Both the position numbers and the translations under genes were made by a program. The notes beneath the pieces were generated by a model. That model worked only from the letters and a program-made list of their open reading frames with translations, had not been told where the DNA came from and did not search any database. Below, one piece after another: positions 14,254 to 32,535 of a DNA stretch of 32,535 nucleotides. Source of the DNA: a virus; IMG/VR virus record IMGVR_UViG_3300030329_003351, positions 1 through 32,535 of that record; one strand, given 5' to 3'. Every line of letters starts with the position of its first letter. Within the stretch, counting starts at the first letter, position 1.

Positions 14254-17200
14254 AACTTGGGGGTGTATAATATTGCTTATGTTTAAGAGATCTAGATCTT
14301 CTTACAATAGGAGAAGTAGTTATTCCTCCTACACCACCTAATGTATAAGCATCATAAGCATTACTTTCAGATCTTGAAGGAAGCATAATCTTACCCCAAC
14401 TATACGATCCAAAGTAATTTCCAGTTTGAATTCCAACTCCACTAAAACTAGGCCATTGACCAGTCCATGTAAAATTATCACCAATCTTAACGAACACTCT
14501 ATTCATATGAGTGGTTCCTATTCCCACTCCATCAGAGGCAACTCCAGTTGGAGATTGAACTATCTCAAATGTATTTACTTCATAAACATTATTTACAAAG
14601 TCGGTTCCAATTCCAATAGTAGCACCATCTGCGGCCAAAGCACGAATTGATGTAGATGCAGATCCAACATTAGAATCATTAACAATGAAATAATCACCAG
14701 TACTAATTCCGCTAATAGTAACAGCAGTGCCAGTAATATTAGAATTTCTCAAGTCTGAAGAAAGAGGAATATGTAAATCAAATACTAATTGATATCCAGT
14801 TGAAACACCAACAGTAGTAGTTCCAAATCCAACAATAACACCAGAGTCTCCTCCATAACTACCCACAGTATTTTCTTCTTCAGCAAAATCATATACAGGT
14901 GGACTAATAAGAACTGATGGTGGATTAGATGAGGTATATCCAGATCCAACTGCAGTAATTGCAATGCCAGTAATAGTTCCAGCAGCACTAATTATAGGAG
15001 TTCCATATGCTCTAGTAGATGTTGTAACAACACCAGTAGTATTATCACCAATAGAAGTTGATCCAAAACTTACTACTGCGGTGCTGTATCCAATACCACC
15101 AGTAGAAATTGCCACAGAACTAATAGTTCCAAGACCAGATACAATAGCAGTTCCAGCAGCACCAGCTTTTATTTCTTGAGAAATAAATCTAACTTTCTTT
15201 TGGAAATTAAAGTCTGATACTTCAGGAGTAGCATCATCAACTTCATCATAAGGATCAAAGTAAGGTCTTACATTTTCAACATATATTACAGTTGATCCAA
15301 TACCTACAGATTTAATAATAGGAGAATAAGGATTAATTACGGGTTCATAAATTTCCCTATCTTTTCCTACACCTATCTGGTTAATAATTTTATCTTCAGT
15401 TTGCCTAGTCCATTTAATAGGTCTTTCTAAATTAGGATCTGCAGTATTTCCTGGTCCATAATATGGAGGAGTAGAAACACGATCAGTAGAATCTAGACTA
15501 AGTGGAACTCTAATTGATTCAGTCAACCAGAAATCTTGAGATTCTAAATGACCTATTTGTAATTCATCACCAGGTTTAACAGTTTCTAAAACTCTTCTTT
15601 CAACAACATCTTGAGATCCAGTTCCTTTATAGAAGATTATCTGTATACTATCTCCTATTTTAGGTGCTTCGGTGAATGTAATATTACTACCACCTGGGAA
15701 AGTATAACCCTCACCAGGAACTTGAGGAACATCATTAACAAATACTAATAGAAGATCTTGCTCAATAATCTTAGAACCTTTTCTACCTCTAATTGTCAAT
15801 GTTTCGTTATTAAGAGTTAGTGGGAAATCCTTTCTAGTTCCAGTAATAAATTTCTCAACATTATCTACTGTTTCTAGTTCACCAACAGACCAACCAGTAA
15901 ATTCGTCATAGAAACATGGATCAAGAGTGAGTTGGAATTCCTTATATGTCTTAGTTGGATCAGTAGGAATACCAGTAGTACCTCCGATAGGTAAGGTTAA
16001 AATTTCATCATTACCATAACCACTTCCAGTGTTAGTAATTGTGAAACTGATTATACTTGATCCTTGTCCAACAACAACATCAACTATACCACCTGTTCCA
16101 ACTCCAGCAGGACTATCAGAGGAATAAGTTAAAGCAATACCACTATAAGATAATGGACTATCAACAATAACTTTAAGTGGTCTTCTAACAACACCACCTC
16201 TGTTATAAAGGTTGGTTTGTGTAGATATTCCAGCATCAAAGGCAAAAGAGGTTGTATCTATAACACGAGTAACTGGTGTGCTGTCAACAGGGAAATTAGT
16301 AGGTAACTTAATTAACTGAGCAGTACCACCAGATGTATATTGAAGTGCAGTGCTACTTGCACCAACTTGAACAACAAAACGTTTTGTGGTTAATACAGAA
16401 CTAATTCTAGATCCCGTATAATATGGATCCGATGTTCTTGGATATGTAATATTGCTACTACCCTCAGTTATTGCTAATCCTGTTAATATGATATCCTCAT
16501 TAGCAACAAAACCATGATTAGCGGAAGTAGTAACAGTTGCAACACCACTAGTAGCACTATAAACAAAATTAGTTATTGCTTTAGGACTAGAAGATAGATT
16601 TGTAAATGCAATACCAGTTATATCTGCCTCTTCACCCACAGAGAACCCATGAGCACTAGATGTAGTGACTGTAGTTAATCCAGTAACCGTATCATACCCT
16701 ACATTTGATATAAAGAGGGGTATGTTAAACACATATGGATTAGTAATAGCAACACCTGTGATATGTCCATCTCCAGAAATCTGTGCTGTTCCAATTCCAA
16801 TAATACTTGTGCCTGGTATTGTTGAAGTTTGAATAGCAACATTTACAGTGGTTTGAACACCCACTCTATAACCAGAACCTGTATTAGCAATACTTACCGA
16901 TGTTACAGTTCCTGCAGTAGAAACAACTGCTGTTCCACCTGCTGCTACTAGTGGTTGATAACCAAATCCCTCAGTAGAAGATACGGAAACAATCGCACCA
17001 CCTAACGGAAGTGTTCCTACATTAGGATCTGCAGAAACAGAACTACCTGTGCCAGTAAAGGTAATGGTAGTAATACCAGTCGTTGTTTGAGCTAAAGTAT
17101 AGTTATTATCAGCTCCAGGAGTTTGGAATACGTCATTAACAAGAATGATTGCATTATCTGTAGTTAATCCAGATACATTTCCTGCACTAGATTTAAGAGT

Positions 17201-20200: not shown

Positions 20201-23200
20201 ACCAACTTCAAATGGGAAGGTGTTTGCAGTGCTAAATCCAGTAGCAAGAGTAACAGTTACATTTTTACTAACTGTGTTAAATCCAACAGTGCTAATACCA
20301 ACTCCATTAGAGTTTTTAAGAGGAATAACAGTAGGTGGTGCATCATGAATACCAAATGTATTCTTCAAAATCTCTACATTTGGATTACCTAATGTATATC
20401 TCAAATCAAGATCAAAAACTGGTTTATTGGTAAATCCGTCAATAACCAAAAGTTCAGGTGCAGAAAGATAACCAACACCAAATGAAGTTATACCAACAGA
20501 CTCAACAGATTTGAGAGCATCTAATTCAATAACTTGTGGCAATGAAGCACTTGGCATTAAAGTTGGATCAAATGGGAAATTATATCCAACATCTTTAAGT
20601 TTTACAGTTTTAATTTTACCAATAGAAGTACTAACACCAGAAATAATTGCATCAGTTCCTCTTGAACTATTAATTGTAGTAATTCCTGGAAGAGAATAAT
20701 AATTTTTACCAGGATTCTTCATATCAAATTTTGTTATTTCACCAAATGCAGTAGCACTATTAGTTTCATAACTTAAATCTGATAAAGAACCATAAGATGT
20801 CTTCTCAGGAATTTGTGATAGAGTATATGTAAATTGATTTGTTGCTGCTACTGTAATATTTTGCTTACCATTATATAAACTTTCTAAAATAGTTACTTGA
20901 CTTCCAGAAATAACATCCTTATCTACAGTTACCTCTTTCTTAACATCAGGAAGATTACTATCGTAAATAGGATCTAATTTATAAAATAATTCAGTAGGAA
21001 TTTCTTTTGTTACTGTCAAAGTAACATTAGCGTCGGTTGAAATACCAGCAGCCCCATTTCTTATAACATTAAAATCTTTTGTTAAAGTTGAAGTGTCAAA
21101 AACTTTAGTAAAATTCTCATCTTTATATAAAGTAAAGTTAAATGCAGAATAATTTGTCGCTTGGTTTACATATGATAAAGATGTATCAGAAACATCAAAA
21201 ACAGCACTACAATCTTTGTATATTTTTATTTCTGGATTTATGGGATTAATAGTTCCTACGGAAGTGCTAGTAATTCCAACAATAGGTGGTTTTTCTTCAA
21301 GTGATTCGTGATATGTATTTGATAATTTAAATTTATTATCATCAACTTTAACAATATAATAAATCTGTTGATCAACTAAACCACCACATGGTATATCAGA
21401 AGTATGAATAATTTTATCACTTGTTTTATATCCATGATTGGATATTGTTAATGTGTTAGTTGTAGTGTTTACTCCTGCTGCTATGAATGATTTTGGATCA
21501 ATTACTATCTTTCTATTATAATCATTATACTTAACAATAATAGTCGTAGAAATACCAGGACTAACATTCATAAACACATTATCATTATTCAATAATCCAT
21601 GTGTCTCCCCAGTAGAAACGGTTGCTTTAACTCTATTAATTTCTCCTGTAATTACTTCATAATTTGTTTTAAGACTATGATATACTCCAGTTCCTACTCC
21701 TGCAAAGAAGAACGTTGTAGAGTCTCTCTGTGTGCTTGCAATGCCCACAAAAGTTCCTGTAGTACCTAAACCTACCTTACATGTAGATAAACCAATTATA
21801 TTTTCATTAACAACTGCAACAAATAAATCCTTTCCATTTGTTAAAGTTGTTATTCCAGAAGCAGCACCTGCTTTACCATCTTCCCAAATAGTAATACCTG
21901 ATCCATTTCCTGGAGAATATGTTACTTTATCACCAGTTTTTAACTCATGATTTGGAATATACATCTGTTTGGAATAAACAAATAGTTCAGTTAATCCAAC
22001 ACCAGGATTAGAAAATACAAGAGTACTACCAATTCCTACTCCACCTAAAGTAGATACACCAACTGATTCTTGTGGTTCAAAGTATAGTTGTTTGTTAATT
22101 CTATATTGATAAGTAGAAGTAAATCCACTATTAACAATAAGCTTTCTAGGATGTTCTAAAATTTCTGAAGTGATTGTATGAGAAACTCCAGTAACACCAT
22201 TTACACCTCTTAACACTCTAATTCTTGAATTTGCTCGATCTACATTTAATACTTTTATAGTTTCTGTTCCTATTCCAAGAATATCATTTGATCTAATAGT
22301 TGGGAATGTTAAATCACCCAAAACATCAAAATGAGTGACAATACCAGTTGCACCATCAGTTCCTATTGCAACTGAAGTGGTTCCTACTCCTGCTACAAAT
22401 AACTTATTAGAACTAATACCAACATTATAAGTTCCTTCAATATTTGATGATGTTGTTGATAATCCAGTTACATTGATAAGATCATTATTAGTCCAATTAA
22501 TAGGTTCATCTATTATAGCTGTGTATTGATCATTTTGAGGACCAGGATAAAACTCAAAACCTGTCATAGTGCTAGTAGCAACACTTACACTAGTAACATC
22601 TTTACCCTTAAGTCTGGAAACATTAGCAGCAGCTCCACCACCACTAGTGCCTTTATTATTGAATATTACTTTATCACCTACTTTATAATTTCTTCCACCT
22701 GTTATAATCCCCACACTTTGAATAGTTCCTGGTTGAGTTCCTTTTATGTCTATTGTTTGTTTTAAACTATCTGGAATGGGTATATATGGATATCTAGTAT
22801 CACCTTCAATTAGATTATAAGGTGTGGTATTTCTATACCAATCATATTCCTCTAAAAGATAATCATCTTGATTAGAATATTGAGTAAAATTAAATGGATC
22901 AGGTGATGATTGATAACATTTACCTATAAGATATGGGAATGTTGGTAATTTATAACTATTAAACTGACCACCCTGTTCAGCACCAGAATTACTTAAAGTT
23001 GCAAAATAAGCATATACTCCATTTGGGAATTGTGGTGTAACACAAAATCTTCCATTATTCTTATCTAAAACAGTCTCATCTGTTTTTTCTCTAAATGTAT
23101 AATCTTCAACAAAGAATCCTGGTCCAAAAACTGTTAAAGGTGGTCTATTTTCTTTAAGAGCTGCTTCTTCAACATATCCAGATTTCATTTGAACTACAGA

Positions 23201-26200
23201 TCCACCTTCCCTTTTAACATATCCATAAGGACCATAAATTGGATTTCCATCATATGCCCATCCGATAATTGGAGAATGGTCTGCAGATTCAACTTCTTGA
23301 CCATTAACTCTCTTCAAATCAGGTTGTCCATATAATGATGTTCCCTCTTGATTAGTTGCATATAAACCTTCTCTAAGTTTTCTGGGAGCATATAAATGAG
23401 TATATTGAAGACCATATTTTTTGTTTAATCCATTTACAATAATACCATCATCTGATGTTACCTGTTCTCCTTGATAATATTTTTCAAACAAATTAATAGT
23501 CCATTGTTGAATATTAGGACGAAGTTTTACTCCTTCACCAGGTGAAAGAACATCTATTGATACGGCATCTTTTGTATAACCTGAACCTTTTTGTAAAACT
23601 TTAACTTCTTCTAAAAGATATCTTACACTTGTTCCAATTCCAACAGTATTAAGAACAGGAGTTAATACTGCCCCAGATCCATCACCATTTATTTGAAGAT
23701 CTGGAGGGGCAATATAATCTTTACCTTTATTTTCTACAATAACTTCAGTAATAGATCCATTATGAACAATAGGTGTCAATTGAGCATCAACACCAGAAGA
23801 TAGACTTACATCTGGTTGTCTATTGAAATTAATAATTTCTGATGATCCATATCCAACACCATTATCAGCAAGATGAATTGATGTTACTTCTCCTCTAAAT
23901 ATTGGTTGAACTTTAGCTTCAAAAGTCTCAGCACCTACAGATGTTACACCTACATTACCTGTTATAGTTACAGCAATCTCAGGATAGTTAAATTGATGTG
24001 TTCCAACACCAATACTTGTTAAAGGACGATATTGTTTAGTTCTATAATAGAAATCCTTTGCAGTAGTTCCAACACCAACACTTGTTAAGTGAAAATTATC
24101 TTTATCAACAAAACAAACATAGTAATCTGTAGCAGTTGTTAATCCAGCAATAGGAGTTCCTGTGCATGTATAGTTTACAATTTCTCCATCTTTATAATCA
24201 TGATTTACAATTTTTATTTGATCTAAAGATGTAGTAATACCTGCAGGTTGAACGGTTCTCTTTTTATTTTCATAACCTGTTCCTGAATCAATTACATTAA
24301 TAGATTCAATTATTGATTTTTTACTAGTAGCTTTTATAAATTGTGTTCCTGAACCACGAGAGGTTAAAACAACTGTATTAATTCCAGCAAGAGCACCAGC
24401 CTCTGTTGTATGAAGTCTTATTGTAGTGCCTCCAGAACCGACTACAGAGGCATGGTAAGCGGCACTAGTAGTCAAACCACCCACCGACTCCTGATTATCT
24501 GTTACATAGATAACTTGCTCACCATTAGTAAATTTATGGTAAGTGCTAAATCCAATTGTAGATGGTAAAGTTCCTGTGGTTCCTAATCCTACTTTTTCTG
24601 AAGATGCTGTAAAAGGAACAGAATGATCCACACTCTGCATGTTTATTTCAGCAAAAGCATCTTGCCCATTTCCACCAGTAATTTTTATTGTAGGTTTCTG
24701 CTCATATCCAAAACCAGGATCTATAATTCTAATACTTTTTAAAGATCCCTTAACAGCAACAAATCCTGTAGCACCTGTTCCAACATTATCCGTTATTTTA
24801 GTAATAGGTGGATTTATTACATCATAGTTAGATCCTGGAGCAAGAATATCTATACTTTCTAATTTTCCATAATAAACTTTTTCATAAGATTTATAATTTA
24901 AAATTTCTACACCATTTACTAGAATGCCAGTAGATCCAGGAGTAGTTTCAGTAATTGTTCCTGTATTGATAGGTAGTGTAATTACTCTTGCTAGTTTTTG
25001 AGATTCTAAAGTTTCTCCATTAAAACTAAAAGGTTCAATTCTATTATCTGTCGCAACACCAGTTCTTGTGCCATCATTATCAAGGTTTATAAAGTTTCCA
25101 TTATAAAGGTCTGGCCTACTTTTTGCTAATTTAATTTTATTAGCATCTACCCTCTGAATGAAATAAAGACCTTCATCCGTTAAAGATGATTTGATGACAA
25201 AATTATCAAGTTTAGTACCACTGGTAGGGTCTACATACACATCATTCACTATCTGTGGTGTATAATAAACAGCATCTCCAGTATAGAATCCATGATCAAA
25301 AATAGGAACACCAACTGGAGTAGTAGCATCAGCAATTATATCCCATGTGTCTCCAGTAAAGTTTCCATTAAATATAATTCTATTAGCATTTACACCAAGA
25401 GATGATGAATCATATGATGGAATAGATGGAGATGTTATTAATAATTTTCCTGTTCCTCTTTCTTCATAAACATTTTGAACATCTGAAGAAAATCTTGCAG
25501 CTTCTGGGAAGTTAAGTGCATTTGCTTTAGATAGTTTTCTTTCAATTACATATGGATTATCTTCTAAGTAATCAGTAACATCAATTTCTCCCTGCTCCTT
25601 TAATATAAAAGATTTTGAAGAAGTGATTTGACTTATAATAGAAGCAGGAAGAGAAGTCTTTTCTCCTTGAGAACGAGAAATAACAGCTCTATCTCCAACT
25701 TTAAATTCATGATCAACATCAGTAAAGACTTCATATGTAAAGTCTGAAACGTCTATTAATCCTATTTTTTTTACTTTATAAGTTGGTGTAACATTATATG
25801 ACCAACCACTCAATTTGTACCCAGTATCACCAATTCCTAAAGTTTTAATTTTTATATCATCACCATTTCCATAAAGACAATTTGCATTTGAATATTCAAC
25901 ATTGTTTATAACACTAGTAATTCTTACCTCAATTTTTTCATCTGGATCAACAACAGAACTTCCATATGCAAATGTATTGATACCAACTACTGTTGCACTA
26001 TCAATAGTTTTACCAATTCCACTCAATCCGAAAAATTGAGTTAGATTTTTAGAAGTATATGAACTTATTCCTACAGTATTATCACTATACCTGAAGTGTA
26101 ATTCACCTTCAGTTGCAAATCCAACTGTAGAGTCAACATCAAAAATAGTAGAACCTGCTGAAATTCCACCAACTAGTCTAGTTCTAGGTGAAATCTCAAA

Positions 26201-27142
26201 TGTACCATAAGTAGCACCTTCTACCCTTGAGTCTCTATTATATCCAGCATCTACACTAAATTTATAGTAAGTTTCTCCAACACCAACAGCAATTTTTTCT
26301 ACATGTGTTATAGGAGCATATGCTTTATCAATATTAGCACCATATTCATCTTGGAACAAAGTTGATAATTCCAAATTCATGGGATTACCTTCAATTGCTT
26401 GAACTACAAAATCTTTAGTGACTTTATAATTGGCATTAGAAGGGGTAAAGAGAAAATCACGAGGTCTTATGATATTCACATCCTCATTATATAAAGATTT
26501 GAATAAAATTTCAAAACCCCTATCAGTTCCCTTACTTAGATAGAAATCTTTTGACTGTTTTATAAAAACTTCCTGATCCAAATCAGAGGTAAGTTGTCTT
26601 CCTTCTAATCCTGGTGTAATTTGATATTTTGTCTTCTTTAAAAATTCTTTAAGGAATAAACAACTTAAATTTTCTATTGTTGATCCTTTAGCATGTTCAT
26701 CAGCTTCTGTAGTTTCAAAAACTAACTCTTCAGAACTAGTGGCACTCTTATACGAAGTAATACCACTAAATCCTCTAATACAACCAGTAAACCCAAAAGT
26801 TGTTATTCCAGTATATGTAATAATCTCATCATTAATTTTTAATAAACCATAAGAATCTGGAAAACCCAGAGTTCCTGTAGGGAAGTTTTGCATATCAACA
26901 TCAATTGCATCACTAGAAATACCAACTGTTGCACCCAATCCAACAGAATATGTAAGATTAGTGAGATTATCTACTTTTACATATTGATCAATATTTTGAA
27001 CTAAATCAATTGGACCACCTTCATATTCTTGCCCTTGATAATAAGATTTTAAAAATTCAGCAACTAATGGGTAATCTGATTTTACATATCCAGGCAATTG
27101 GTTCTGGACAATGTTATTAAACTGTACTCTTTTTGTTGTCAT
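14252..27142 (-). CDS. giant 4,296-residue baseplate/virion protein with YHYH domain (gp7 position)
   Basis: One uninterrupted frame of 12.9 kb lies exactly between gp6 and gp8, the place of baseplate wedge gp7 in T4 (1,032 residues). The N terminus (KRVQFNNIVQNQLPGYVKSD, then YPLVAEFLKSYYQGQ) and the segment at ~165-260 (QSKDFYLSKGTDRGFEILFK, NIIRPRDFLF) look like the conserved head of this cyanophage family. Residues about 1245-1400 carry a YHYH-type domain: GWAYDGNPIYGPYGY, then NNGRFCVTPQFPNGVYAYF. About fourteen GxGY repeats are spread from ~790 to ~4150, with many VGVGTT linkers. Conserved QRFQDSDYYQNLSYSLSSR occurs near 2490. The C terminus reads GSYSWGKIML and ends Arg/Lys-rich. There is no membrane segment or enzyme motif beyond YHYH. 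Likely a wedge protein expanded with surface or fibre modules. Homology to gp7 itself is inferred from position, not sequence. Confidence 0.9.
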   Translation of the reverse strand: MTTKRVQFNNIVQNQLPGYVKSDYPLVAEFLKSYYQGQEYEGGPIDLVQNIDQYVKVDNLTNLTYSVGLGATVGISSDAIDVDMQNFPTGTLGFPDSYGLLKINDEIITYTGITTFGFTGCIRGFSGITSYKSATSSEELVFETTEADEHAKGSTIENLSCLFLKEFLKKTKYQITPGLEGRQLTSDLDQEVFIKQSKDFYLSKGTDRGFEILFKSLYNEDVNIIRPRDFLFTPSNANYKVTKDFVVQAIEGNPMNLELSTLFQDEYGANIDKAYAPITHVEKIAVGVGETYYKFSVDAGYNRDSRVEGATYGTFEISPRTRLVGGISAGSTIFDVDSTVGFATEGELHFRYSDNTVGISSYTSKNLTQFFGLSGIGKTIDSATVVGINTFAYGSSVVDPDEKIEVRITSVINNVEYSNANCLYGNGDDIKIKTLGIGDTGYKLSGWSYNVTPTYKVKKIGLIDVSDFTYEVFTDVDHEFKVGDRAVISRSQGEKTSLPASIISQITSSKSFILKEQGEIDVTDYLEDNPYVIERKLSKANALNFPEAARFSSDVQNVYEERGTGKLLITSPSIPSYDSSSLGVNANRIIFNGNFTGDTWDIIADATTPVGVPIFDHGFYTGDAVYYTPQIVNDVYVDPTSGTKLDNFVIKSSLTDEGLYFIQRVDANKIKLAKSRPDLYNGNFINLDNDGTRTGVATDNRIEPFSFNGETLESQKLARVITLPINTGTITETTPGSTGILVNGVEILNYKSYEKVYYGKLESIDILAPGSNYDVINPPITKITDNVGTGATGFVAVKGSLKSIRIIDPGFGYEQKPTIKITGGNGQDAFAEINMQSVDHSVPFTASSEKVGLGTTGTLPSTIGFSTYHKFTNGEQVIYVTDNQESVGGLTTSAAYHASVVGSGGTTIRLHTTEAGALAGINTVVLTSRGSGTQFIKATSKKSIIESINVIDSGTGYENKKRTVQPAGITTSLDQIKIVNHDYKDGEIVNYTCTGTPIAGLTTATDYYVCFVDKDNFHLTSVGVGTTAKDFYYRTKQYRPLTSIGVGTHQFNYPEIAVTITGNVGVTSVGAETFEAKVQPIFRGEVTSIHLADNGVGYGSSEIINFNRQPDVSLSSGVDAQLTPIVHNGSITEVIVENKGKDYIAPPDLQINGDGSGAVLTPVLNTVGIGTSVRYLLEEVKVLQKGSGYTKDAVSIDVLSPGEGVKLRPNIQQWTINLFEKYYQGEQVTSDDGIIVNGLNKKYGLQYTHLYAPRKLREGLYATNQEGTSLYGQPDLKRVNGQEVESADHSPIIGWAYDGNPIYGPYGYVKREGGSVVQMKSGYVEEAALKENRPPLTVFGPGFFVEDYTFREKTDETVLDKNNGRFCVTPQFPNGVYAYFATLSNSGAEQGGQFNSYKLPTFPYLIGKCYQSSPDPFNFTQYSNQDDYLLEEYDWYRNTTPYNLIEGDTRYPYIPIPDSLKQTIDIKGTQPGTIQSVGIITGGRNYKVGDKVIFNNKGTSGGGAAANVSRLKGKDVTSVSVATSTMTGFEFYPGPQNDQYTAIIDEPINWTNNDLINVTGLSTTSSNIEGTYNVGISSNKLFVAGVGTTSVAIGTDGATGIVTHFDVLGDLTFPTIRSNDILGIGTETIKVLNVDRANSRIRVLRGVNGVTGVSHTITSEILEHPRKLIVNSGFTSTYQYRINKQLYFEPQESVGVSTLGGVGIGSTLVFSNPGVGLTELFVYSKQMYIPNHELKTGDKVTYSPGNGSGITIWEDGKAGAASGITTLTNGKDLFVAVVNENIIGLSTCKVGLGTTGTFVGIASTQRDSTTFFFAGVGTGVYHSLKTNYEVITGEINRVKATVSTGETHGLLNNDNVFMNVSPGISTTIIVKYNDYNRKIVIDPKSFIAAGVNTTTNTLTISNHGYKTSDKIIHTSDIPCGGLVDQQIYYIVKVDDNKFKLSNTYHESLEEKPPIVGITSTSVGTINPINPEIKIYKDCSAVFDVSDTSLSYVNQATNYSAFNFTLYKDENFTKVFDTSTLTKDFNVIRNGAAGISTDANVTLTVTKEIPTELFYKLDPIYDSNLPDVKKEVTVDKDVISGSQVTILESLYNGKQNITVAATNQFTYTLSQIPEKTSYGSLSDLSYETNSATAFGEITKFDMKNPGKNYYSLPGITTINSSRGTDAIISGVSTSIGKIKTVKLKDVGYNFPFDPTLMPSASLPQVIELDALKSVESVGITSFGVGYLSAPELLVIDGFTNKPVFDLDLRYTLGNPNVEILKNTFGIHDAPPTVIPLKNSNGVGISTVGFNTVSKNVTVTLATGFSTANTFPFEVGDLVYIEGISVGVGTTARGYNSSEYDYKLFNLTEVDPNLGGIGSITYNLTDFFGDLAPELTPGTYDFVNSAGRVVPQKYFPRFDVKLTKTNDYVTGETVTGTLSSTTGEVQYWDASTGILRISAQKDFVVGDIIVGGASGVQGTATSIKSFDSYLKLSATARVEGGWETESGFFNRTLQRFQDSDYYQNLSYSLSSRVDFEVWDDPVSTLNHTIGFKKFGDYQLESTPDQKDSLVVGLSTELSAYTVVNELQSTVNMNTVEDFDLASENVLSIGDDTVSTEITFSSRILKDFQESIGNRVVSIDDFSGTFNSNPRSTRFTTVASWTLAERRALKYFLYVKDKRFTAQRQLTIVDIIHDNNFGYLNQYGKIDTVYNQGDFDFAISGSLGELRWYPVKFSVNDYWIASLSFNLDDNALGTASTVVGPSIVDTESVAIGVGIGTTTIVGIASTYRSAHVIVSINPDINREEFEYNQFNIIHDGTTVDVMEYGRLSTNITEGYVSRTGMGTYHGYIENDLLKLDFYPNSGVGIGTTGAINTMLVGMASSEYSGISTVELKHAILESRCTGIGSTTSPVENVIAEYTTDYQAAYCYIQVTDCTNKAYQMSEFLAVNDFVEDETQESYDVQFGDIYSGNAGLGTFGTRVSSAGTMSILFTPNAGIDVHTNVWSNALRINDDLKDTIDFDNGAIESGFGDYEGTDRAVKRQFELKHRSDTIFEKPFVGEDSSIVKVDDDVIILPNHFFVTGEQLTYNHAGAGKTMAVGIATTNGFVGVGTTNKLPGTFFAVKIDDDSIKIAETAEKALKTVPEVVDITSVGIGTSHRFNSINQNSKLLVSIDNIIQSPIVSTAVTSHLTSSVVTTDEFINLAGITSIFGGDLIKIGDEIMRVDGVGIGLTNRIQVRRPWMGTALAGYSTATVVTKVVGNYNVVENTINFVAAPSGNVPLSTTTNRPDERDWVGISTGSSFEGRMFMRSGVPDTPYETYYRNYVFDSLSDQFTGQQANFTLKSSAGNVSGLTTDNAIILVNDVFQTPGADNNYTLAQTTTGITTITFTGTGSSVSADPNVGTLPLGGAIVSVSSTEGFGYQPLVAAGGTAVVSTAGTVTSVSIANTGSGYRVGVQTTVNVAIQTSTIPGTSIIGIGTAQISGDGHITGVAITNPYVFNIPLFISNVGYDTVTGLTTVTTSSAHGFSVGEEADITGIAFTNLSSSPKAITNFVYSATSGVATVTTSANHGFVANEDIILTGLAITEGSSNITYPRTSDPYYTGSRISSVLTTKRFVVQVGASSTALQYTSGGTAQLIKLPTNFPVDSTPVTRVIDTTSFAFDAGISTQTNLYNRGGVVRRPLKVIVDSPLSYSGIALTYSSDSPAGVGTGGIVDVVVGQGSSIISFTITNTGSGYGNDEILTLPIGGTTGIPTDPTKTYKEFQLTLDPCFYDEFTGWSVGELETVDNVEKFITGTRKDFPLTLNNETLTIRGRKGSKIIEQDLLLVFVNDVPQVPGEGYTFPGGSNITFTEAPKIGDSIQIIFYKGTGSQDVVERRVLETVKPGDELQIGHLESQDFWLTESIRVPLSLDSTDRVSTPPYYGPGNTADPNLERPIKWTRQTEDKIINQIGVGKDREIYEPVINPYSPIIKSVGIGSTVIYVENVRPYFDPYDEVDDATPEVSDFNFQKKVRFISQEIKAGAAGTAIVSGLGTISSVAISTGGIGYSTAVVSFGSTSIGDNTTGVVTTSTRAYGTPIISAAGTITGIAITAVGSGYTSSNPPSVLISPPVYDFAEEENTVGSYGGDSGVIVGFGTTTVGVSTGYQLVFDLHIPLSSDLRNSNITGTAVTISGISTGDYFIVNDSNVGSASTSIRALAADGATIGIGTDFVNNVYEVNTFEIVQSPTGVASDGVGIGTTHMNRVFVKIGDNFTWTGQWPSFSGVGIQTGNYFGSYSWGKIMLPSRSESNAYDAYTLGGVGGITTSPIVRRSRSLKHKQYYTPPS

Positions 27143-27159: not shown

Positions 27160-29202
27160 TTAGTAGGATGAAGATGCTGATGTAGATGATGTAGAACTAC
27201 CACCTGTAGTAGTTGTGGCTCTAGTTGATGTGCTTGGAACCGAAGTTGTTGGTGTAGTTGTTCGACTGTTACGTCCTCCAGAACGAACTAAATTACCATT
27301 AGCATAACTGGTAGATGTAATATAATTAGAACCAGAAGGATCTAATCCTGAAGATATTTCATCAACTACGGTTTCAAACGTACTGTTATTAATATCTAGC
27401 TGTAAATAAAGATCCTGCAATCCAATGACATCATTAGACATAGGACATGCAGAAATTTCAATAACAGTTTGACCATCTTTAATCATTCCAGATTGAATAT
27501 TAACTGGATTTAGAGTAATAATTCCATCTTTATAATTAATAGTTCCAACGTTTCTTCTGACAATAGTAGGAGATTGTGAGGCTTCTGATGGAACAGTAAA
27601 TAAAAATAGTGATCCATTAATTCTATTTGTGTTTGGAATATCAGATATATAAACATCATCCATAATACCAGCAACTCTAAATGCTGATGATTTAATATTA
27701 TATCCACTCATACTCTTAATATGGAATTCATTACCAAAACCAATTTGATATTCAGCAAAAGCATTTAATACTGCTCTTATATCTCTTCTTATATAAATGG
27801 TCGTAATATTAGATGTAATCGATTCATTACTTTGATCAATAATATTCAAAAACTTACTATACTTAAATCTAGCACCATACTTATTCATCTCTGAAGATTC
27901 TGCATACTTCATAGAGTTACTCTGTACAACAGAGGATACATATGCTGCAGAAGGTGCAAGATTACTGTTATAATAGATTTTTGAGTTAACTTCAATATAA
28001 AGATATTTCAAATCAAGTATTTCTGGAATAATTCCTGCTACTGCATACTTCTTCAATTTCAATTTTATCTGTTCTTTGATTAAATTTGGTAAAAAGTCAC
28101 CAGTTTTTGGTTTTATGCTAATAAAGACCTTTCCATATTGAGGTGGAATTAAATCTTCACCTCCAAAAACGGAAATTGACTCAGTTTCAGGATAAATTCT
28201 TGATGGAATCAAAGATTCATAGTCATTTGAGGTAACTGCCCTGTTTTGAGATGAATAAATCCTTGGAGCGAACTTTCTAACCGACTCAACAGACTCAATT
28301 GTCTCTCCACCCGATGCAGTTAATCCAGTTGTCATCAAAGAGATGCCAGAACTGATTGTATATGACTGAGCATTACGTGTATATTGAATTCTACCTGCAA
28401 AATTGAATGAATTCAACCCATTTGCAGCATCTCCACTAGAAGTGATGTAATCTATTGTAATAAAATTACCATCTTCAAGTGCTTTTCCAAAAATTCCATC
28501 TCCAAAGAATATTTGATATCTTTCATCTTCAATTTCTTGTAAATAATAAACTTTTGACTCAGATTTTACGTCAAAAAGACTATTTTGTGAACTATATTTG
28601 GTTTCTGTGGTAGATGCTTCGTTTGGTCTTACAGAAACGGTCATTAAATCAGTATCAACACCAATATTTGGTATTACAAACTTCTGATTTGGAACTCTTG
28701 AGGAATATGTGAAGGTTTGGGTTAAAAGTGTGCCTTCAAAAACCTCTACCTCGTTAAATTCTGCAATTCCATTCACAACTGGAACTGTAATATCACTTAA
28801 AATTGAAAAAACATAGGAAGAACCACCAAAAGGACTTGAAGATGCTGCCACAGGACCCTTTTTAAGGGTTAAAGAAGCAGGTGCAGGTATAATTCCCTCC
28901 GTATTCACAAAGAAGGACACTGTTGCCCTTGCTGCTTGCCTTGGACGAGGCACATAACCTATGTTTCTTGCTAAAGATATGACGTTTTCTCTTAATGTAG
29001 CAGTATCAATGAACACCTCATTGGTGATCATGTTTGCATTGTATGATGTAATGTAGGTATTATATGCCAAAACGTCCAAAATCGTTGAAAGATTAGACCC
29101 TTCAAAGTCATAATCGGTAAAATTAGAGTTTGATTTTAGATAATCTTGTAAAGTTATCTTAACTTGGTCAAAATCCAAGTTACTAAAGTTAGCTAATGGC
29201 AT
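27160..29202 (-). CDS. gp6: baseplate wedge protein gp6
   Basis: gp6 forms the ring-like core of the baseplate wedges (baseplate J-like family). It has 680 residues against 660 in T4. The N terminus NLDFDQVKITLQDYLKSNSN then FEGSNLSTILDVLAYNTYIT, and NEVFIDTATLRENVISLARN, GYVPRPRQA, is diagnostic. The J-like core continues with ERYQIFFGDGIFGKALEDG and RIYSSQNRAVTSNDYESLIP. The last ~45 residues, after SGLDPSGSNYITSTSYANGN, are an almost pure Ser/Thr/Gly/Arg tail ending SSTSASSSY, which T4 gp6 lacks and which is probably disordered. The gene starts two bases after gp25, as in T4, where gp25 and gp6 are also adjacent and interact. Confidence 0.95.
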   Translation of the reverse strand: MPLANFSNLDFDQVKITLQDYLKSNSNFTDYDFEGSNLSTILDVLAYNTYITSYNANMITNEVFIDTATLRENVISLARNIGYVPRPRQAARATVSFFVNTEGIIPAPASLTLKKGPVAASSSPFGGSSYVFSILSDITVPVVNGIAEFNEVEVFEGTLLTQTFTYSSRVPNQKFVIPNIGVDTDLMTVSVRPNEASTTETKYSSQNSLFDVKSESKVYYLQEIEDERYQIFFGDGIFGKALEDGNFITIDYITSSGDAANGLNSFNFAGRIQYTRNAQSYTISSGISLMTTGLTASGGETIESVESVRKFAPRIYSSQNRAVTSNDYESLIPSRIYPETESISVFGGEDLIPPQYGKVFISIKPKTGDFLPNLIKEQIKLKLKKYAVAGIIPEILDLKYLYIEVNSKIYYNSNLAPSAAYVSSVVQSNSMKYAESSEMNKYGARFKYSKFLNIIDQSNESITSNITTIYIRRDIRAVLNAFAEYQIGFGNEFHIKSMSGYNIKSSAFRVAGIMDDVYISDIPNTNRINGSLFLFTVPSEASQSPTIVRRNVGTINYKDGIITLNPVNIQSGMIKDGQTVIEISACPMSNDVIGLQDLYLQLDINNSTFETVVDEISSGLDPSGSNYITSTSYANGNLVRSGGRNSRTTTPTTSVPSTSTRATTTTGGSSTSSTSASSSY

Positions 29203-29204
29203 TT

Positions 29205-29606
29205 TTATCTACTTGATTGCAAAACAAATTGTAATTCTTGTGCTGGAACGTTCCTTCCTATAATTTCATATGTTATAGTTACATCAAAACTGTTGTTTTC
29301 AAAGTTTGGATCTGCTAAAACATCAATCACTTGCACCCTATCTTCATAAGTTTCTATAGATTCACGTATTTCATCAACAATAATAGTGCCAGTAATGTCA
29401 TCTATGTTCTCAAAAAGAGATTCAGTTATCCTTGAACCAAAAGATGCATTAAAAAACTTCTCTCCAGGTAATGTAAATACAATATTTCGTATAGAACGTG
29501 CAATTGCATTCTCATTTTTGAGTGCAATAAGGTCATCATTCAGTGGATTAGACTGAAATGTCATGCTAATGTCTTTAAATCCTTGACTAACTCGTTCTAG
29601 AGGCAC
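29205..29606 (-). CDS. gp25: baseplate wedge protein gp25
   Basis: This is the small wedge protein conserved from T4 to contractile injection systems. It has 133 residues (T4: 132). Typical segments are ERVSQGFKDISMTFQSNP, ALKNENAIARSIRNIVFTLP, GEKFFNASFGSRITESLFEN and a C-terminal NNSFDVTITYEI. The start is GTG at 29604-29606. No in-frame ATG lies between it and an upstream stop, and the next ATG (residue 15) would delete the conserved N terminus. There is no convincing ribosome site in front of the GTG. A late-promoter-like AATAAATA lies about 20 bases upstream, so this is probably the first gene of a late transcript running into gp6 and the giants. Confidence 0.95.
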   Translation of the reverse strand: MPLERVSQGFKDISMTFQSNPLNDDLIALKNENAIARSIRNIVFTLPGEKFFNASFGSRITESLFENIDDITGTIIVDEIRESIETYEDRVQVIDVLADPNFENNSFDVTITYEIIGRNVPAQELQFVLQSSR

Positions 29607-29625
29607 ACTAATAGAGCAATTATTG

Positions 29626-29642
29626 TTTATTTATTAAGGATT
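29626..29642 (-). promoter_or_regulatory. late-promoter-like element before gp25
   Basis: The minus strand reads AATCCTTAATAAATAAA, identical to the 17 bases before gp8 and close to the T4 late promoter core TATAAATA. It sits in the 44-base gap in front of gp25, with about 20 bases to the GTG start. Confidence 0.6.
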
Positions 29643-29650
29643 GTTTACAA

Positions 29651-29803
29651 CTATTCTGTAAGAGTTAACGAATCTACTTCATAATCCAATCCATCGTCTT
29701 CAAAATCCCCAAATATCTCACTTTGCACCAATTCATCACGTTTTTTAGGTGTAAGATGGTCGTTAGATACCTCTCTTAACATTTTTTTCTTGGAATTTTC
29801 CAT
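29651..29803 (-). CDS. small acidic protein of 50 residues, unknown function
   Basis: The frame starts at ATG 29801-29803 (MENSKKKMLREVSNDHL) and ends at TAG. The N-terminal half is basic (KKK, PKKRDE), the C-terminal half acidic (FGDFEDDGLDYEVDSLTL). I do not recognise a domain. It lies between the strong terminator at 29833-29860 and the late promoter of gp25, so it must be read either by readthrough or from its own promoter. GTTAAATAGT about 30 bases upstream weakly resembles the late element. No Shine-Dalgarno sequence is visible. The compositional pattern and exact fit in the gap favour a real gene. Confidence 0.6.
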   Translation of the reverse strand: MENSKKKMLREVSNDHLTPKKRDELVQSEIFGDFEDDGLDYEVDSLTLTE

Positions 29804-29832
29804 ATTTTTTCAATATTTTTACTATTTAACAT

Positions 29833-29860
29833 AAAAAAAAGAGGGTCTTTACCCTCTTTT
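29833..29860 (-). terminator. strong intrinsic terminator closing the early gene cluster
   Basis: A perfect 10-base-pair stem (AAAAGAGGGT / ACCCTCTTTT) with a 4-base loop occupies 29837-29860 and is followed on the minus strand by further T residues, giving T8 in total. The stop codon of the 48-residue basic gene overlaps its first bases. Because the A-run also precedes the stem, the hairpin could act weakly in the other direction. Confidence 0.9.
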
Positions 29861-30005
29861 ATCTTTTTCCTTGTCCTCGGTACGCTTTTTTTGCTTTATT
29901 ACGAGACGTTGCGGAAAGTAGTGTTCGAGCCGAGCAGCCTTGACGAGTTTTTTTCGGACGAGGAAGTTTGTAACTCCCATCTTTTATCCCTGATAGCATT
30001 GGCAT
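29859..30005 (-). CDS. small highly basic protein of 48 residues
   Basis: The frame starts at ATG 30003-30005, with GGAGGA about ten bases upstream, and ends inside the terminator stem. The sequence includes KLPRPKKTRQGCSARTLLS and SRNKAKKAYRGQG, with about a third Lys/Arg and almost no acidic residues. I recall similar short basic RPKKTRQG / SRNKAKK-type proteins in cyanomyoviruses, but I know no function. The composition suggests nucleic-acid binding or binding to an acidic partner (inference). The ATG overlaps the stop of the preceding gene as TAATG, so translation is coupled. A second ATG two codons later is an alternative start. Confidence 0.8.
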   Translation of the reverse strand: MPMLSGIKDGSYKLPRPKKTRQGCSARTLLSATSRNKAKKAYRGQGKR

Positions 30006-30151
30006 TAGTTAGTTTCCTCCAATTTACGTTGAACTGATTCTGGTGTTGCTTTTATTCTGTAGTCAACTCCATCCCTACGAGAAAGTTCGGTGAGGATCTC
30101 TGCTGAAAGATCCCATAACTCCTCTGTCTTGAGTTGGGTATTTACCGACAT
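30005..30151 (-). CDS. small protein of 48 residues, unknown function
   Basis: The frame begins with ATG 30149-30151, one base after the glycosyltransferase stop, and ends with TAA overlapping the next ATG. It encodes MSVNTQLKTEELWDLSAEIL followed by TELSRRDGVDYRIKATPESV and a charged end: an amphipathic helical protein with no cysteine, signal or membrane segment. I do not recognise a family. Tight coupling on both sides (one-base gap, then one-base overlap) places it in the same early transcript as the glycosyltransferase and the small basic protein. Confidence 0.75.
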   Translation of the reverse strand: MSVNTQLKTEELWDLSAEILTELSRRDGVDYRIKATPESVQRKLEETN

Positions 30152-30152
30152 T

Positions 30153-30920
30153 TTAAATAACCCTTGTTTTTTCATGTCCTACACGTATGCGAGGGTCACA
30201 CCATGTCTCTATACCCATCTCTTTTGCATCTAGGCAGAAAGACACGTCCTCACCACACATGTCCTGAACTGCACCTGACTCAAAGACTTGCATCTTAGGA
30301 GCAAACCAAGGATATTGCATGTCCTCGAAAACTCCCTTCTTAATTAACACCCATCCAAAACCTGTATAGTCAACTGTGAAAGGCTTGTTGCGTTTGCCCA
30401 TTGATTCAACAGTCTCATGATTCATAACACCACCGTTCTTACGGAAGTCTTCTTCTTCTAACCAGTGTGCAACTGAGGTAGTATGTCCATCCTCTGTAGC
30501 ATACCAGCCTGCTGCGATCTTTCTTTCCTCACCTTCAGCAGGAATGGCAAGATCAGCAAGCTGCCAGAACTTCTCTACATTAAACACAATGTCATTATCA
30601 ATCCATAACTGATAATCATACTGTAACTTACCATCCCAAGGTTTCTGATCAGCACCACGAAGAACATTTGCTCCAAGACACTTACAACGTGCAAAGTTCA
30701 CCATAGAAGAGTAATCTTGTGATATCTGAATACTCATTCCAGATTGAACCATATCAAAGGATAGTTGTACAAAATTCTTTAAGAAGGTATATGAACATCC
30801 TCTACCAGGTAAACAAAATACTATTGTCTTTCCTTTCCATCTCTCCTTGATTGCAGGAATGTCCCACTTGGGTTCATCTTTCTTCGGAGACTTTGCTTTA
30901 ACAGTAAATCCTTTTGCCAT
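30153..30920 (-). CDS. GT-A-fold glycosyltransferase-like protein
   Basis: This is a 255-residue soluble protein. After a basic leader, KTIVFCLPGRGCSYTFLKNF forms the first Rossmann-like strand and helix of a GT-A fold. YDYQLWIDNDIVF at about 101-113 supplies a DxD-type motif (Asp108-Asn109-Asp110) for metal and nucleotide-sugar binding. TGFGWVLIKKGVFE at about 186-199 and CGEDVSFC (Glu224-Asp225) correspond to the acceptor side and the catalytic GED-like acid of family-2-type transferases. His249 in VGHEKT is the usual late metal-side histidine. Similar proteins are common in cyanomyoviruses. The acceptor (DNA base, protein or host glycan) is not visible from sequence. It has its own perfect sigma-70 promoter directly upstream, implying early expression, unlike the virion genes after it. 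Confidence 0.82.
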   Translation of the reverse strand: MAKGFTVKAKSPKKDEPKWDIPAIKERWKGKTIVFCLPGRGCSYTFLKNFVQLSFDMVQSGMSIQISQDYSSMVNFARCKCLGANVLRGADQKPWDGKLQYDYQLWIDNDIVFNVEKFWQLADLAIPAEGEERKIAAGWYATEDGHTTSVAHWLEEEDFRKNGGVMNHETVESMGKRNKPFTVDYTGFGWVLIKKGVFEDMQYPWFAPKMQVFESGAVQDMCGEDVSFCLDAKEMGIETWCDPRIRVGHEKTRVI

Positions 30921-30943
30921 AACCTTTAGTTACCTTCATTTCA

Positions 30944-30972
30944 ATTATACAGTGTTATTATCTATATGTCAA
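30944..30972 (-). promoter_or_regulatory. perfect sigma-70 promoter before the glycosyltransferase gene
   Basis: On the minus strand TTGACA (30972-30967), a 17-base spacer and TATAAT (30949-30944) match the full consensus. It begins four bases after the stop of the upstream gene, and the glycosyltransferase ATG lies 23 bases past the -10 box. Confidence 0.9.
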
Positions 30973-30976
30973 CATT

Positions 30977-31219
30977 TTAGTATGAATCTTCTCCTGGTGG
31001 TTCTATTGCAATTCTGATCGGTCCTCCGACACCCACTGTGGGGGCTGCCTTCTCAAACGACAAGTCACTCTCAGTATAATCAGTCTTCAACAACCCTACC
31101 ATTACATTCAACAACTCCCATGTCTCCTCAAACTCGTCTTGTTTTAAATTATGGTATATACACCGATCCTTCACGTAGATATGGTATGTGGTTATATTAC
31201 TTAAATCTTCAAGGGGCAT
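30977..31219 (-). CDS. conserved cyanophage-type protein of 80 residues, unknown function
   Basis: The core reads TTYHIYVKDRCIYHNLKQDE then FEETWELLNVMVGLLKTDY and ESDLSFEK. This (Y/H)xYxxDxCIYHxL...MVGLxxTDYxxxDLSYE pattern is one I associate with small proteins of marine T4-like phages, without known function. The last ~20 residues (PTVGVGGPIRIAIEPPGEDS) are Gly/Pro-rich and look like an added tail. No ribosome site is evident in front of the ATG. The transcript starts far upstream, near 31402 by the promoter, giving a leader of about 180 bases that is long for a phage genome this compact. Confidence 0.8.
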   Translation of the reverse strand: MPLEDLSNITTYHIYVKDRCIYHNLKQDEFEETWELLNVMVGLLKTDYTESDLSFEKAAPTVGVGGPIRIAIEPPGEDSY

Positions 31220-31229
31220 TTTTACTTGG

Positions 31230-31245
31230 GGGATTTTTTTATATA
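31230..31245 (-). repeat. A-tract direct repeat, copy 2
   Basis: The minus strand reads TATATAAAAAAATCCC, identical to the copy 47 bases upstream. It ends about ten bases before the start codon at 31219. Confidence 0.85.
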
Positions 31246-31276
31246 TGAATCCTAAAAAAGGTCAAAAAATTTTTTC

Positions 31277-31292
31277 GGGATTTTTTTATATA
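31277..31292 (-). repeat. A-tract direct repeat, copy 1
   Basis: TATATAAAAAAATCCC on the minus strand, 16 bases identical to copy 2. A third, imperfect relative (TTTATAAAAAAG ... GTCCC) lies near 31322-31343. Confidence 0.85.
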
Positions 31293-31408
31293 CAACTCGC
31301 ACGAACCCACTTTTGTAGGTTAGGGACTTTTACTTTTTTATAAACGCAACGCCCGCATCGGGCATAACACCGAGGGGGCAAAATCACTGTCAATAACTGT
31401 TATAAACC

Positions 31409-31437
31409 ATTATAATATTACATGAGGTTTATGTCAA
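31409..31437 (-). promoter_or_regulatory. perfect sigma-70 promoter in the 31.2-31.5 kb gap
   Basis: On the minus strand TTGACA (31437-31432), a 17-base spacer and TATAAT (31414-31409). Transcription would start near 31402 and reach the 80-residue gene after about 180 bases. Confidence 0.9.
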
Positions 31438-31480
31438 CAACTGTGTAAACACTATGTTATATAAACCCCACGCATATTCG

Positions 31481-31504
31481 CACAGTTAAGTTATAAGAAC
31501 TGTG
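31481..31504. repeat. inverted repeat CACAGTT/AACTGTG
   Basis: Seven-base perfect arms (31481-31487 and 31498-31504) flank a 10-base A/T-rich centre. It lies just past the stop of the 41-residue gene and upstream of the next promoter. AACTGTG also recurs nearby, so it may be a protein-binding site rather than a terminator; no T-run follows. Confidence 0.6.
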
Positions 31505-31522
31505 TATAACGGTTTGTGTTAG

Positions 31523-31648
31523 TTATAATGCTGTATCTTGCACCTCCACAATATCATCGAGGACTGCCAAGATTTCATCACCATTGTTTGCATTATCTAA
31601 TAGAAATTCTGCAAAGGTTTGTGATACTGGGCGAACGGAATTTGCCAT
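31523..31648 (-). CDS. small acidic protein of 41 residues, unknown function
   Basis: ATG at 31646-31648 and TAA at 31523-31525. It begins MANSVRPVSQTFAEFLLDNA and continues with an acidic helix, NNGDEILAVLDDIVE. The composition is protein-like (two amphipathic helices, no low complexity), but the ribosome site is weak (only A/T-rich sequence upstream). It follows the 59-residue gene by about 60 bases and has no promoter of its own that I can see, so it is probably on the transcript from 31918-31946. I do not recognise a family. Confidence 0.65.
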   Translation of the reverse strand: MANSVRPVSQTFAEFLLDNANNGDEILAVLDDIVEVQDTAL

Positions 31649-31709
31649 CTTAAATGTTAGTAACTGTGTGGGAGTGATCCCTATACATTACTAGGACAAT
31701 TTACTCGCT

Positions 31710-31889
31710 TCAGTTATAATAACTCAGTGGGCAATCTATCTCCTCAATGTAACAATCAAGGTCTTCATTTTCTTCAATTTGTAATACTTTCCTCCAATCA
31801 ATTTGCCGTGGGTTAAAGTCATCTAGCACGTCTAATTCCAGTGTTATTCTATACTTACTCTTCTGTCCATAATAGTTAGAAACTGTCAT
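31710..31889 (-). CDS. small acidic protein of 59 residues, unknown function
   Basis: The frame can be extended back to a TTG at 31946, but that TTG is the first three bases of a perfect -35 box, and the -10 box lies inside the extension. The transcript would start near 31911, so I chose ATG 31887-31889, giving a leader of about 22 bases. The protein begins MTVSNYYGQKSKYRITLELD and continues with DDFNPRQIDWRKVLQIEENE and an acidic Cys-containing end (DLDCYIEEIDCPLSYYN). No domain is recognised. It is the first gene after the candidate origin and would be among the first transcribed by host polymerase. Confidence 0.72.
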   Translation of the reverse strand: MTVSNYYGQKSKYRITLELDVLDDFNPRQIDWRKVLQIEENEDLDCYIEEIDCPLSYYN

Positions 31890-31917
31890 GAGATTAGACG
31901 GTAGTTGTGTATACTTT

Positions 31918-31946
31918 ATTATAATACTTCTGTGGAAAAGTGTCAA
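31918..31946 (-). promoter_or_regulatory. perfect sigma-70 promoter with a DnaA-like box in its spacer
   Basis: On the minus strand TTGACA (31946-31941), 17 bases, TATAAT (31923-31918). The spacer contains TTTTCCACA (31939-31931), an exact copy of the box that is clustered to the right. A protein bound there would cover the promoter between its two hexamers. Confidence 0.92.
31931..31939 (-). promoter_or_regulatory. DnaA-like box (exact TTTTCCACA) inside a promoter
   Basis: TTTTCCACA on the minus strand. Its cluster lies at 32085-32280. The spacer position predicts occlusion of the promoter when bound. Confidence 0.65.
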
Positions 31947-31958
31947 GTATTATGACCA

Positions 31959-31966
31959 TATTTATA
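31959..31966 (-). promoter_or_regulatory. exact T4-type late promoter core upstream of the first early promoter
   Basis: TATAAATA on the minus strand, the full T4 late consensus, 13 bases upstream of the -35 box of the perfect sigma-70 promoter. If active it would let the same small genes be transcribed late as well as early. An 8-base match in A+T-rich DNA can also be chance. Confidence 0.4.
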
Positions 31967-32021
31967 CAGAAATCTTTATATTTTAATAATTGTAATATCC
32001 CTACAAAGTATAAACGAGGGA

Positions 32022-32051
32022 TTGACAATTAAACCGAGTTCGTGTTATACT
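32022..32051 (+). promoter_or_regulatory. plus-strand sigma-70 promoter facing the DnaA-like box array
   Basis: TTGACA (32022-32027), 18-base spacer, TATACT (32046-32051) preceded by TG one base before (extended -10). The arms ACCGAG (32033-32038) and CTCGGT (32055-32060) form an inverted repeat around the -10 box that could be an operator or an initial RNA hairpin. No ATG occurs on the plus strand from 32052 to 32457, so the transcript would be non-coding, run through the box array and be antisense to the small genes beyond. Confidence 0.7.
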
Positions 32052-32084
32052 CTGCTCGGTAAGATCACTATAAAATCAACACTT

Positions 32085-32171
32085 TATTCCACAATATTTC
32101 CACACTAACTAACAACAATTCCACACGTTTTCCACTCTATTGTTTATACTTTTCAACATACTTGTGGAAAA
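32085..32171. repeat. array of six helically phased DnaA-like boxes
   Basis: Boxes compared with TTTTCCACA: 32085-32093 (one mismatch), 32096-32104 (one), 32117-32125 (two), 32128-32136 (one), 32150-32158 (one), and 32163-32171 (exact, reverse orientation). Core-to-core distances are 11, 21, 11, 22 and 11 bases, that is one or two helical turns, placing all boxes on one face of the DNA. Confidence 0.75.
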
Positions 32172-32204
32172 GAGATATATTTAACGACCCTATTTATTAG
32201 ACCA

Positions 32205-32222
32205 TTTTTAAACCTTTTTAAA
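32205..32222 (+). repeat. tandem TTTTTAAA repeat in A+T-rich stretch
   Basis: TTTTTAAA occurs at 32205-32212 and 32215-32222, a period of 10 bases, inside a 70-base A+T-rich stretch between the two groups of boxes. It is a candidate unwinding element. Confidence 0.6.
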
Positions 32223-32244
32223 GCATATTTGCATCATTAAGTAA

Positions 32245-32290
32245 TAGTTTTCCACAGAAATACCCCTAAGTTGTGGAAAACTAAGGGGTA
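32245..32290. repeat. two interleaved inverted repeats containing paired exact DnaA-like boxes
   Basis: Palindrome 1 has 12-base arms (32245-32256 and 32272-32283), each containing an exact TTTTCCACA, with a 15-base centre. Palindrome 2 has 7-base arms TACCCCT (32261-32267) and AGGGGTA (32284-32290). The arms alternate 1-2-1-2, so the two hairpins exclude each other. The minus-strand version of palindrome 2 lies 12 bases past the stop of the small membrane-protein gene and could also serve as a weak terminator. Confidence 0.8.
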
Positions 32291-32301
32291 ACGATTGTGT
32301 T

Positions 32302-32400
32302 CTAGTTAGTGTTACTTAGTAGGACAAATAGCACTCTTCCTAGTATAATAAAGAAGACGAAGTTTGCCACCTTTGATAACATTTTAGTGACTGTAATCAT
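32302..32400 (-). CDS. small single-span membrane protein of 32 residues
   Basis: ATG at 32398-32400 overlaps the stop of the upstream gene (ATGA), with AAGGAAG immediately before it. The protein begins MITVTKMLSKVANFVFFIIL and continues with GRVLFVLLSNTN. Residues about 11-28 form one hydrophobic helix interrupted by Gly-Arg, with a basic N-terminal flank suggesting an inside N terminus. The ATG at residue 7 is an alternative start. Function is unknown; tiny membrane proteins in phage early regions often act on the host envelope, but nothing here shows that. Confidence 0.6.
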   Translation of the reverse strand: MITVTKMLSKVANFVFFIILGRVLFVLLSNTN

Positions 32401-32534
32401 CTTCCTTGATTACCTACTACTACCTCCGATTTAACGTCAATTTGTTTAAACAATTCAATGATCTTTTCTGCTTTTGAATATGTTTCAAATGACATATATT
32501 TGCATTTGATTGTATTAGGAAACCAGTAACGAAT
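32397..32534 (-). CDS. C-terminal part of a small protein entering the window
   Basis: An open frame enters from the right edge and ends with TGA at 32397-32399. The visible 45 residues include RYWFPNTIKCKYMSFETYSK followed by AEKIIELFKQIDVKSEVVV. They have a helical, charged, protein-like composition. An internal ATG (at MSFETYSK) could be the true start, which would make a 32-residue product, but the coding-like sequence before it (RYWFPN) suggests the gene begins outside the window. The function is not recognised. It is translationally coupled to the small membrane protein through an ATGA overlap. Confidence 0.6.
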   Translation of the reverse strand: MRYWFPNTIKCKYMSFETYSKAEKIIELFKQIDVKSEVVVGNQGR

Positions 32535-32535
32535 A

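Follow-up and report, generated by a model that had tools for sequence, protein, structure and literature searches.

What does a cluster of cyanobacterial-type DnaA boxes do in the genome of a T4-like phage? The question is raised by a stretch of viral DNA of 32,535 nucleotides (positions 1 to 32,535 of IMG/VR record IMGVR_UViG_3300030329_003351), which was analysed at its full length and is called the window here. Its nearest GenBank relatives are Marine virus AG-345-E15, Bellamy, S-SM2, SynMITS9220M01 and P-TIM68, so the window comes from the genome of a T4-like cyanomyovirus, of which it covers a part; this agrees with the assignment to the T4-like cyanophages in a first-pass annotation that was made from the letters only. 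Its products include gp25- and gp6-like baseplate wedge proteins, a tail sheath stabilizer and a small terminase subunit, as well as a glycosyltransferase-related protein (phrog_1574) that was named GT. Two giant ORFs are present on the minus strand, one of 4296 aa (14252-27142) at the position of a very long baseplate wedge initiator in related phages, the other of 2536 aa (5046-12656).

The boxes occupy a gap of about 400 bp that contains no ORF of 60 aa or longer; orf78, the GT gene and gp25 all lie downstream of it. No Rfam match was found in positions 29200-32535 of the window, and comparison of the 431-bp site with GenBank phages at the DNA level gave one weak match. In many relatives (L549, L550, L556, L560, L566 and others) the contig breaks off within 1-2 kb of the GT gene on its upstream side; the window does likewise at about 1.6 kb, a hint that this stretch is variable or hard to assemble. 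Between the GT gene and the boxes, the 9-mers CCTAACCTACA and ACAGAGGTGAC recur in relatives (within the first 2.5 kb upstream of GT, L548-L627; an example in the window lies near 31310).

All nine boxes annotated in 31931-32280 (four exact, four with one mismatch and one with two) were recovered at their positions (Table 1), and no further exact TTTTCCACA was found elsewhere in the window or its 32.5-kb record. The core-to-core spacings of 11, 21, 11, 22, 11, 87 and 22 bases also hold, with TTCCACA/TGTGGAA taken as the core. Built on the local 1.3 kb, an order-2 Markov model predicts 0.045 exact boxes per 1336 bp, or about 0.012 per 350 bp. The first-pass annotation had put the chance expectation well under 0.01, which is slightly optimistic; the rarity itself was borne out, as 4000 simulations of the local model gave at most two exact boxes in 350 bp and never reached the four observed. 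Simulations of the whole-window model (200) never exceeded two either. When one mismatch is allowed, the whole window contains 22 boxes against 16.8 expected, which is unremarkable: the signal is the clustering of the boxes and not their window-wide total.

Table 1. Boxes, promoter-like elements and neighbouring features of the gap, in positions of the window.
Feature	Position	Strand	Remarks
orf78	from ~31890 downwards	-	neighbour of the box gap
Promoter-like TTGACA-17-TATAAT	31918..31946	-	12/12 consensus; gene direction, towards orf78, GT and gp25
Exact box TTTTCCACA	31931..31939	-	in the spacer (17 bp) of the sigma70-type site above
AT-rich stretch, candidate unwinding element	31945..32012		between the lone box and the array
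Promoter-like TTGACA-18-TATACT	32022..32051	+	11/12 consensus; TG before the second hexamer
Inverted repeat CCGAG...CTCGG	32034..32059		around the counter-directed -10
Box TATTCCACA	32085..32093	+	1 mismatch
Box ATTTCCACA	32096..32104	+	1 mismatch
Box AATTCCACA	32117..32125	+	2 mismatches
Box TTTTCCACT	32128..32136	+	1 mismatch
Box TTTTCAACA	32150..32158	+	1 mismatch; variant also in host oriC
Exact box TTTTCCACA	32163..32171	-	
AT-rich spacer, 76 bp	32172..32247		between boxes 32163 and 32248
Exact box TTTTCCACA	32248..32256	+	first of the convergent pair
Exact box TTTTCCACA	32272..32280	-	second of the convergent pair; 24 bp after the first, as in Syn9
Possible 32-aa ORF	ends near 32300		read by eye; other neighbour of the gap

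The 9-mer TTTTCCACA is a cyanobacterial DnaA box that has been footprinted with DnaA (PMC4674748). For the oriC of likely hosts, cyanobacterial genomes were retrieved with the D1 protein of P-TIM68, dnaN was located in them and the DNA upstream of it was read. An oriC was found beside dnaN in Prochlorococcus/Synechococcus relatives. The boxes in the oriC of Prochlorococcus and marine Synechococcaceae read TTTTCCACA or ATTTCCACA, AATTCCACA, TTTTCAACA and TTTTCCACT, and the same variants are present in the window. The annotation of the motif as a host-type DnaA box is thus matched by both the oriC boxes of likely hosts and the published site (PMC4674748). Judged by its sequence, the motif of the window is the DnaA box of the phage's likely hosts. 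No phage-encoded DnaA domain IV (C-terminal domain) was found in the 15 records searched, and host DnaA would therefore be the natural binder.

Most of these host oriC end with a box, a short linker and CTACTACTACTA, the DnaA-trio, which was present in seven of the nine host sites scanned. A box, a GC-rich linker and a DnaA-trio characterize the BUS-type bacterial origin. Two adjacent boxes followed by the DnaA-trio CTACTACTACTA were observed upstream of dnaN in L532, L533, L534-L538 and L540. A DnaA-trio beside the boxes is absent from the window, and the phage set overall gave only four isolated two-trio matches. The sequence CTACTACTACC at about 32415 was considered as a DnaA-trio and rejected, as no box adjoins it.

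Conservation of the boxes at the syntenic position upstream of gp25 had been set beforehand as a check, and such boxes were found in relatives. In a box-blind sample of 80 IMG/VR relatives, fetched by their GT protein and not by boxes, the 149 kb upstream of GT contain 101 copies of the exact 9-mer and the 324 kb downstream contain none. In the same sample, 300 letter-permuted 9-mers gave a mean of 2.3 and a maximum of 19 upstream occurrences. Of 107 mappable IMG/VR clusters among the matches listed, 80 lie 0-10 kb upstream of gp25, on contigs selected for a pair and not for the location of the pair. A reversed-motif control scan of IMG/VR was unusable as a count, because the reversed motif hits another recurrent element, and it was replaced by the GT-anchored sample. 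This element, ACACCTTTT-N10-AAAAGGTGT, is a 28-bp inverted repeat of constant length that was seen in many unrelated viral contigs (L329 to L448).

Twenty-one sites, the window and 20 relatives, were aligned; they were picked for the convergent pair, so the conservation of the pair among them stems from this selection. Pairwise identity in the 21 sites is 0.843 for the boxes versus 0.739 for the rest of the gap (circular-shift p 0.003). One relative, L548, matches the site of the window at 99% identity and is in all probability almost the same virus.

A tight pair, meaning two exact boxes no more than 60 bp apart, was found in 12 of 23 cyanomyovirus isolates, namely S-SM2, P-TIM68, S-PM2, Syn9, S-SM1, S-SSM5, Syn1, Syn19, Syn33, S-ShM2, S-CAM1 and S-CAM8, with counts that are non-independent owing to the relatedness of the isolates. 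In all 12 carriers the tight pair is located only 1.6-7.6 kb upstream of gp25; random scatter of the same boxes would produce 0.15 tight pairs in all 23 genomes together. The pair of Syn9 lies at 52565/52589 and the site of Syn33 at 46.4-46.8 kb, and the box cluster of S-PM2 overlaps tRNA genes. In another branch, consisting of Syn33, S-CAM8 and IMG/VR relatives, one box is followed after 229 bp by a convergent pair 23 bp apart. The tight pair is missing in 11 of the 23 isolates, including Bellamy and SynMITS9220M01, which are close relatives of the window, and the boxes therefore cannot be essential in the family. Degenerate boxes form no cluster in Bellamy, SynMITS9220M01, P-SSM4 and P-HM1, and T4 contains no cluster of TTTTCCACA or of TTWTNCACA.

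Box spacing was analysed in the IMG/VR contigs among the matches listed and in the GT-fetched loci, with identical sequences counted once. Among these matches, direct box pairs peak at 11-12, 21-22, 32-33, 42 and 54 bp and convergent pairs at 13, 23-24, 34-35, 55 and 78 bp, with a period of 10.8-10.9 bp for both (Rayleigh z 110 and 118, respectively). The near-helical spacing that had been pointed out in the window thus recurs in its relatives among the matches listed. Such a period would be expected if the boxes were bound cooperatively from a single side of the helix.

The boxes are accompanied by further conserved elements. The first-pass annotation mentions neither the counter-directed promoter element nor the location of a box within an early-type promoter, nor that about half of the isolates are without tight pairs. 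In 21/21 aligned sites the AT-rich DNA that separates the lone box from the array has 74-85% A+T. Among the 100-bp stretches of the window, 31914-32013 ranks second for low stability, several coding stretches being equally unstable. The length of the 76-bp spacer is kept in 19/21 aligned sites; it contains a conserved CCCTATTTATTAGACCATTT and, on the minus strand, a late-promoter-like AATAAATA. The promoter-like element at 32022..32051 runs counter to the genes and points into the boxes of the array; no ORF of at least 60 aa follows it. Its -10 part is strongly conserved in the window's relatives. A related element, TTGACA...GCTWAGA, is found near the boxes in Syn9, S-SM2, S-SM1, S-SSM5, Syn33, S-CAM8, Syn19, S-ShM2 and Syn1 and less well in S-CAM1, the -10 assignments being weak outside the window's own group. 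It is also found at the same place in the box-less Bellamy, SynMITS9220M01 and P-SSM4. In the extended form TTGACA...GCTWAGA-YNAC it occupies 32022-32067 of the window and lies at 73388, 49670 and 51088, respectively, of these three (record coordinates). Upstream of gp25 this counter-directed element is more widespread than the boxes, and it may be the core of the locus. The two arms of CCGAG...CTCGG covary in several relatives, but in three a direct repeat takes the place of the inverted one, so an RNA or DNA hairpin around the -10 is a candidate only. Between the gap and GT, the minus strand carries two further perfect copies of TTGACA-17-TATAAT (31437-31409 and 30972-30944), both promoter-like and oriented with the genes.

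Given the presence of the boxes, their host-type motif, syntenic conservation and helical phasing, and the promoter-like element associated with them, the locus is very probably a conserved array of candidate host-DnaA binding sites to which DnaA binds for some purpose. The chances that this purpose is the initiation of replication, with the locus as part of an early phage origin, appear about even. Host-consensus DnaA boxes that cluster outside coding DNA, a general feature of DnaA-dependent origins, are present in the window. Cyanomyoviruses keep the T4 replisome and recombination genes, without MotA and mostly without RNase H (PMC2984593), and the known origins of T4 use a MotA promoter, R-loops and RNase H (PMC3016281); a DnaA-assisted origin would fill this gap. 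A single theta origin has been predicted for Syn9 (Weigele et al. 2007, as cited in PMC2984593), and that review mentions this predicted origin only and leaves open whether other phages share it.

In the proposed mechanism, host DnaA would fill the helically phased boxes, and the bound protein would bend or open the neighbouring AT-rich DNA, an opening that transcription from the counter-directed promoter into the array would possibly help. Through this opening, the T4-type helicase, primase and polymerase that the phage itself encodes would gain access. A cumulative GC-skew turn at the locus, to which the first-pass annotation had looked for confirmation, gave no support for an origin in ten complete genomes: turns nearby are wrong-signed or reflect gene content, and the skew pattern, confounded by gene content, is the same in genomes without boxes. 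Origin function is put at about even chances because about half of the isolates are without the tight pair, no DnaA-trio is present and no usable skew was obtained.

DnaA may instead act at the locus as a transcription regulator that, from its boxes, represses or times the early-type, counter-directed and late-like promoters. The downstream gene block would then be expressed in step with the DnaA level or the phage copy number. DnaA is an established repressor or activator in other bacteria, box 31931 exactly fills the spacer of a perfect sigma70 promoter-like site, and the counter-directed element is conserved in the three isolates without boxes. This reading is nevertheless unlikely: the lone promoter box is lost in 3 of the 20 aligned relatives, which keep the TTGACA, the array and the pair, and the phased multi-box arrays reach hundreds of bp past any promoter, beyond what simple repression would need.

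It is improbable that the boxes serve titration, in which accumulating phage copies would bind host DnaA, stop host replication and free nucleotides without any phage origin. A cluster of strong boxes on a multiplying genome would suit this purpose, each copy adding four exact and five weaker sites, but titration requires neither a fixed genomic place nor a counter-directed promoter, and both are conserved. Likewise improbable is a site for another phage or host regulator with a coincidental match to the DnaA box, since, even if the phage geometry (11-12, 13 and 23-24 bp) differs from that of host oriC (9, 30, 54 and 89 bp), the 9-mer is identical to the host and general cyanobacterial box (PMC4674748) and the degenerate variants ATTTCCACA, AATTCCACA, TTTTCAACA and TTTTCCACT are common to host oriC and phage.

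The reading of the locus as part of a DnaA-recruiting origin suggests that, unlike T4, the carriers of the cluster would use the host initiator to start or time their own replication. It is conceivable, with the balance somewhat against it, that, in a large group of T4-like cyanophages, T4's MotA/R-loop origins have given way to, or been joined by, one DnaA-recruiting, counter-transcript-aided origin, tying replication to the host initiator and perhaps to the cell cycle. If true, lytic T4-type phages would depend on the initiator of their host, which bears on the light and cell-cycle dependence of infection; the hosts of these abundant viruses are the main photosynthesizers of the ocean. The array at its fixed place makes the question of replication start testable in Syn9, Syn33, S-CAM8, S-SM1 and P-TIM68. 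Judging by titles and abstracts in the open literature, no earlier report of DnaA-box clusters in cyanophages was found.

Upon comparison with known systems, the phage site resembles the cyanobacterial oriC beside dnaN (Prochlorococcus, Synechococcus, Cyanothece) in its clustered TTTTCCACA and variants in AT-rich non-coding DNA (PMC4674748). It differs from that oriC in its spacing, in having no DnaA-trio and no dnaN or dnaA neighbour, and in lying on a genome with its own T4-type replisome. With T4 oriF (uvsY) and oriG (34) it shares a promoter running into AT-rich DNA in a T4-type phage (PMC3016281), whereas these two work through MotA middle promoters and R-loops, without DnaA. The predicted theta origin of Syn9 belongs to the same phage group, and Syn9 carries the box pair. 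P1 oriR, pSC101 and ColE1 have host DnaA boxes beside an AT-rich region, as the phage site does, and are aided by other factors; origins of this type carry iterons with a Rep protein, or a defined primer RNA. No replicon-type initiator gene was found among the protein families matched in the window. In E. coli, datA is a DnaA titration site with dense DnaA boxes outside oriC; unlike datA, the phage array is strictly phased, keeps one place in the viral genome and has a conserved promoter element beside it.
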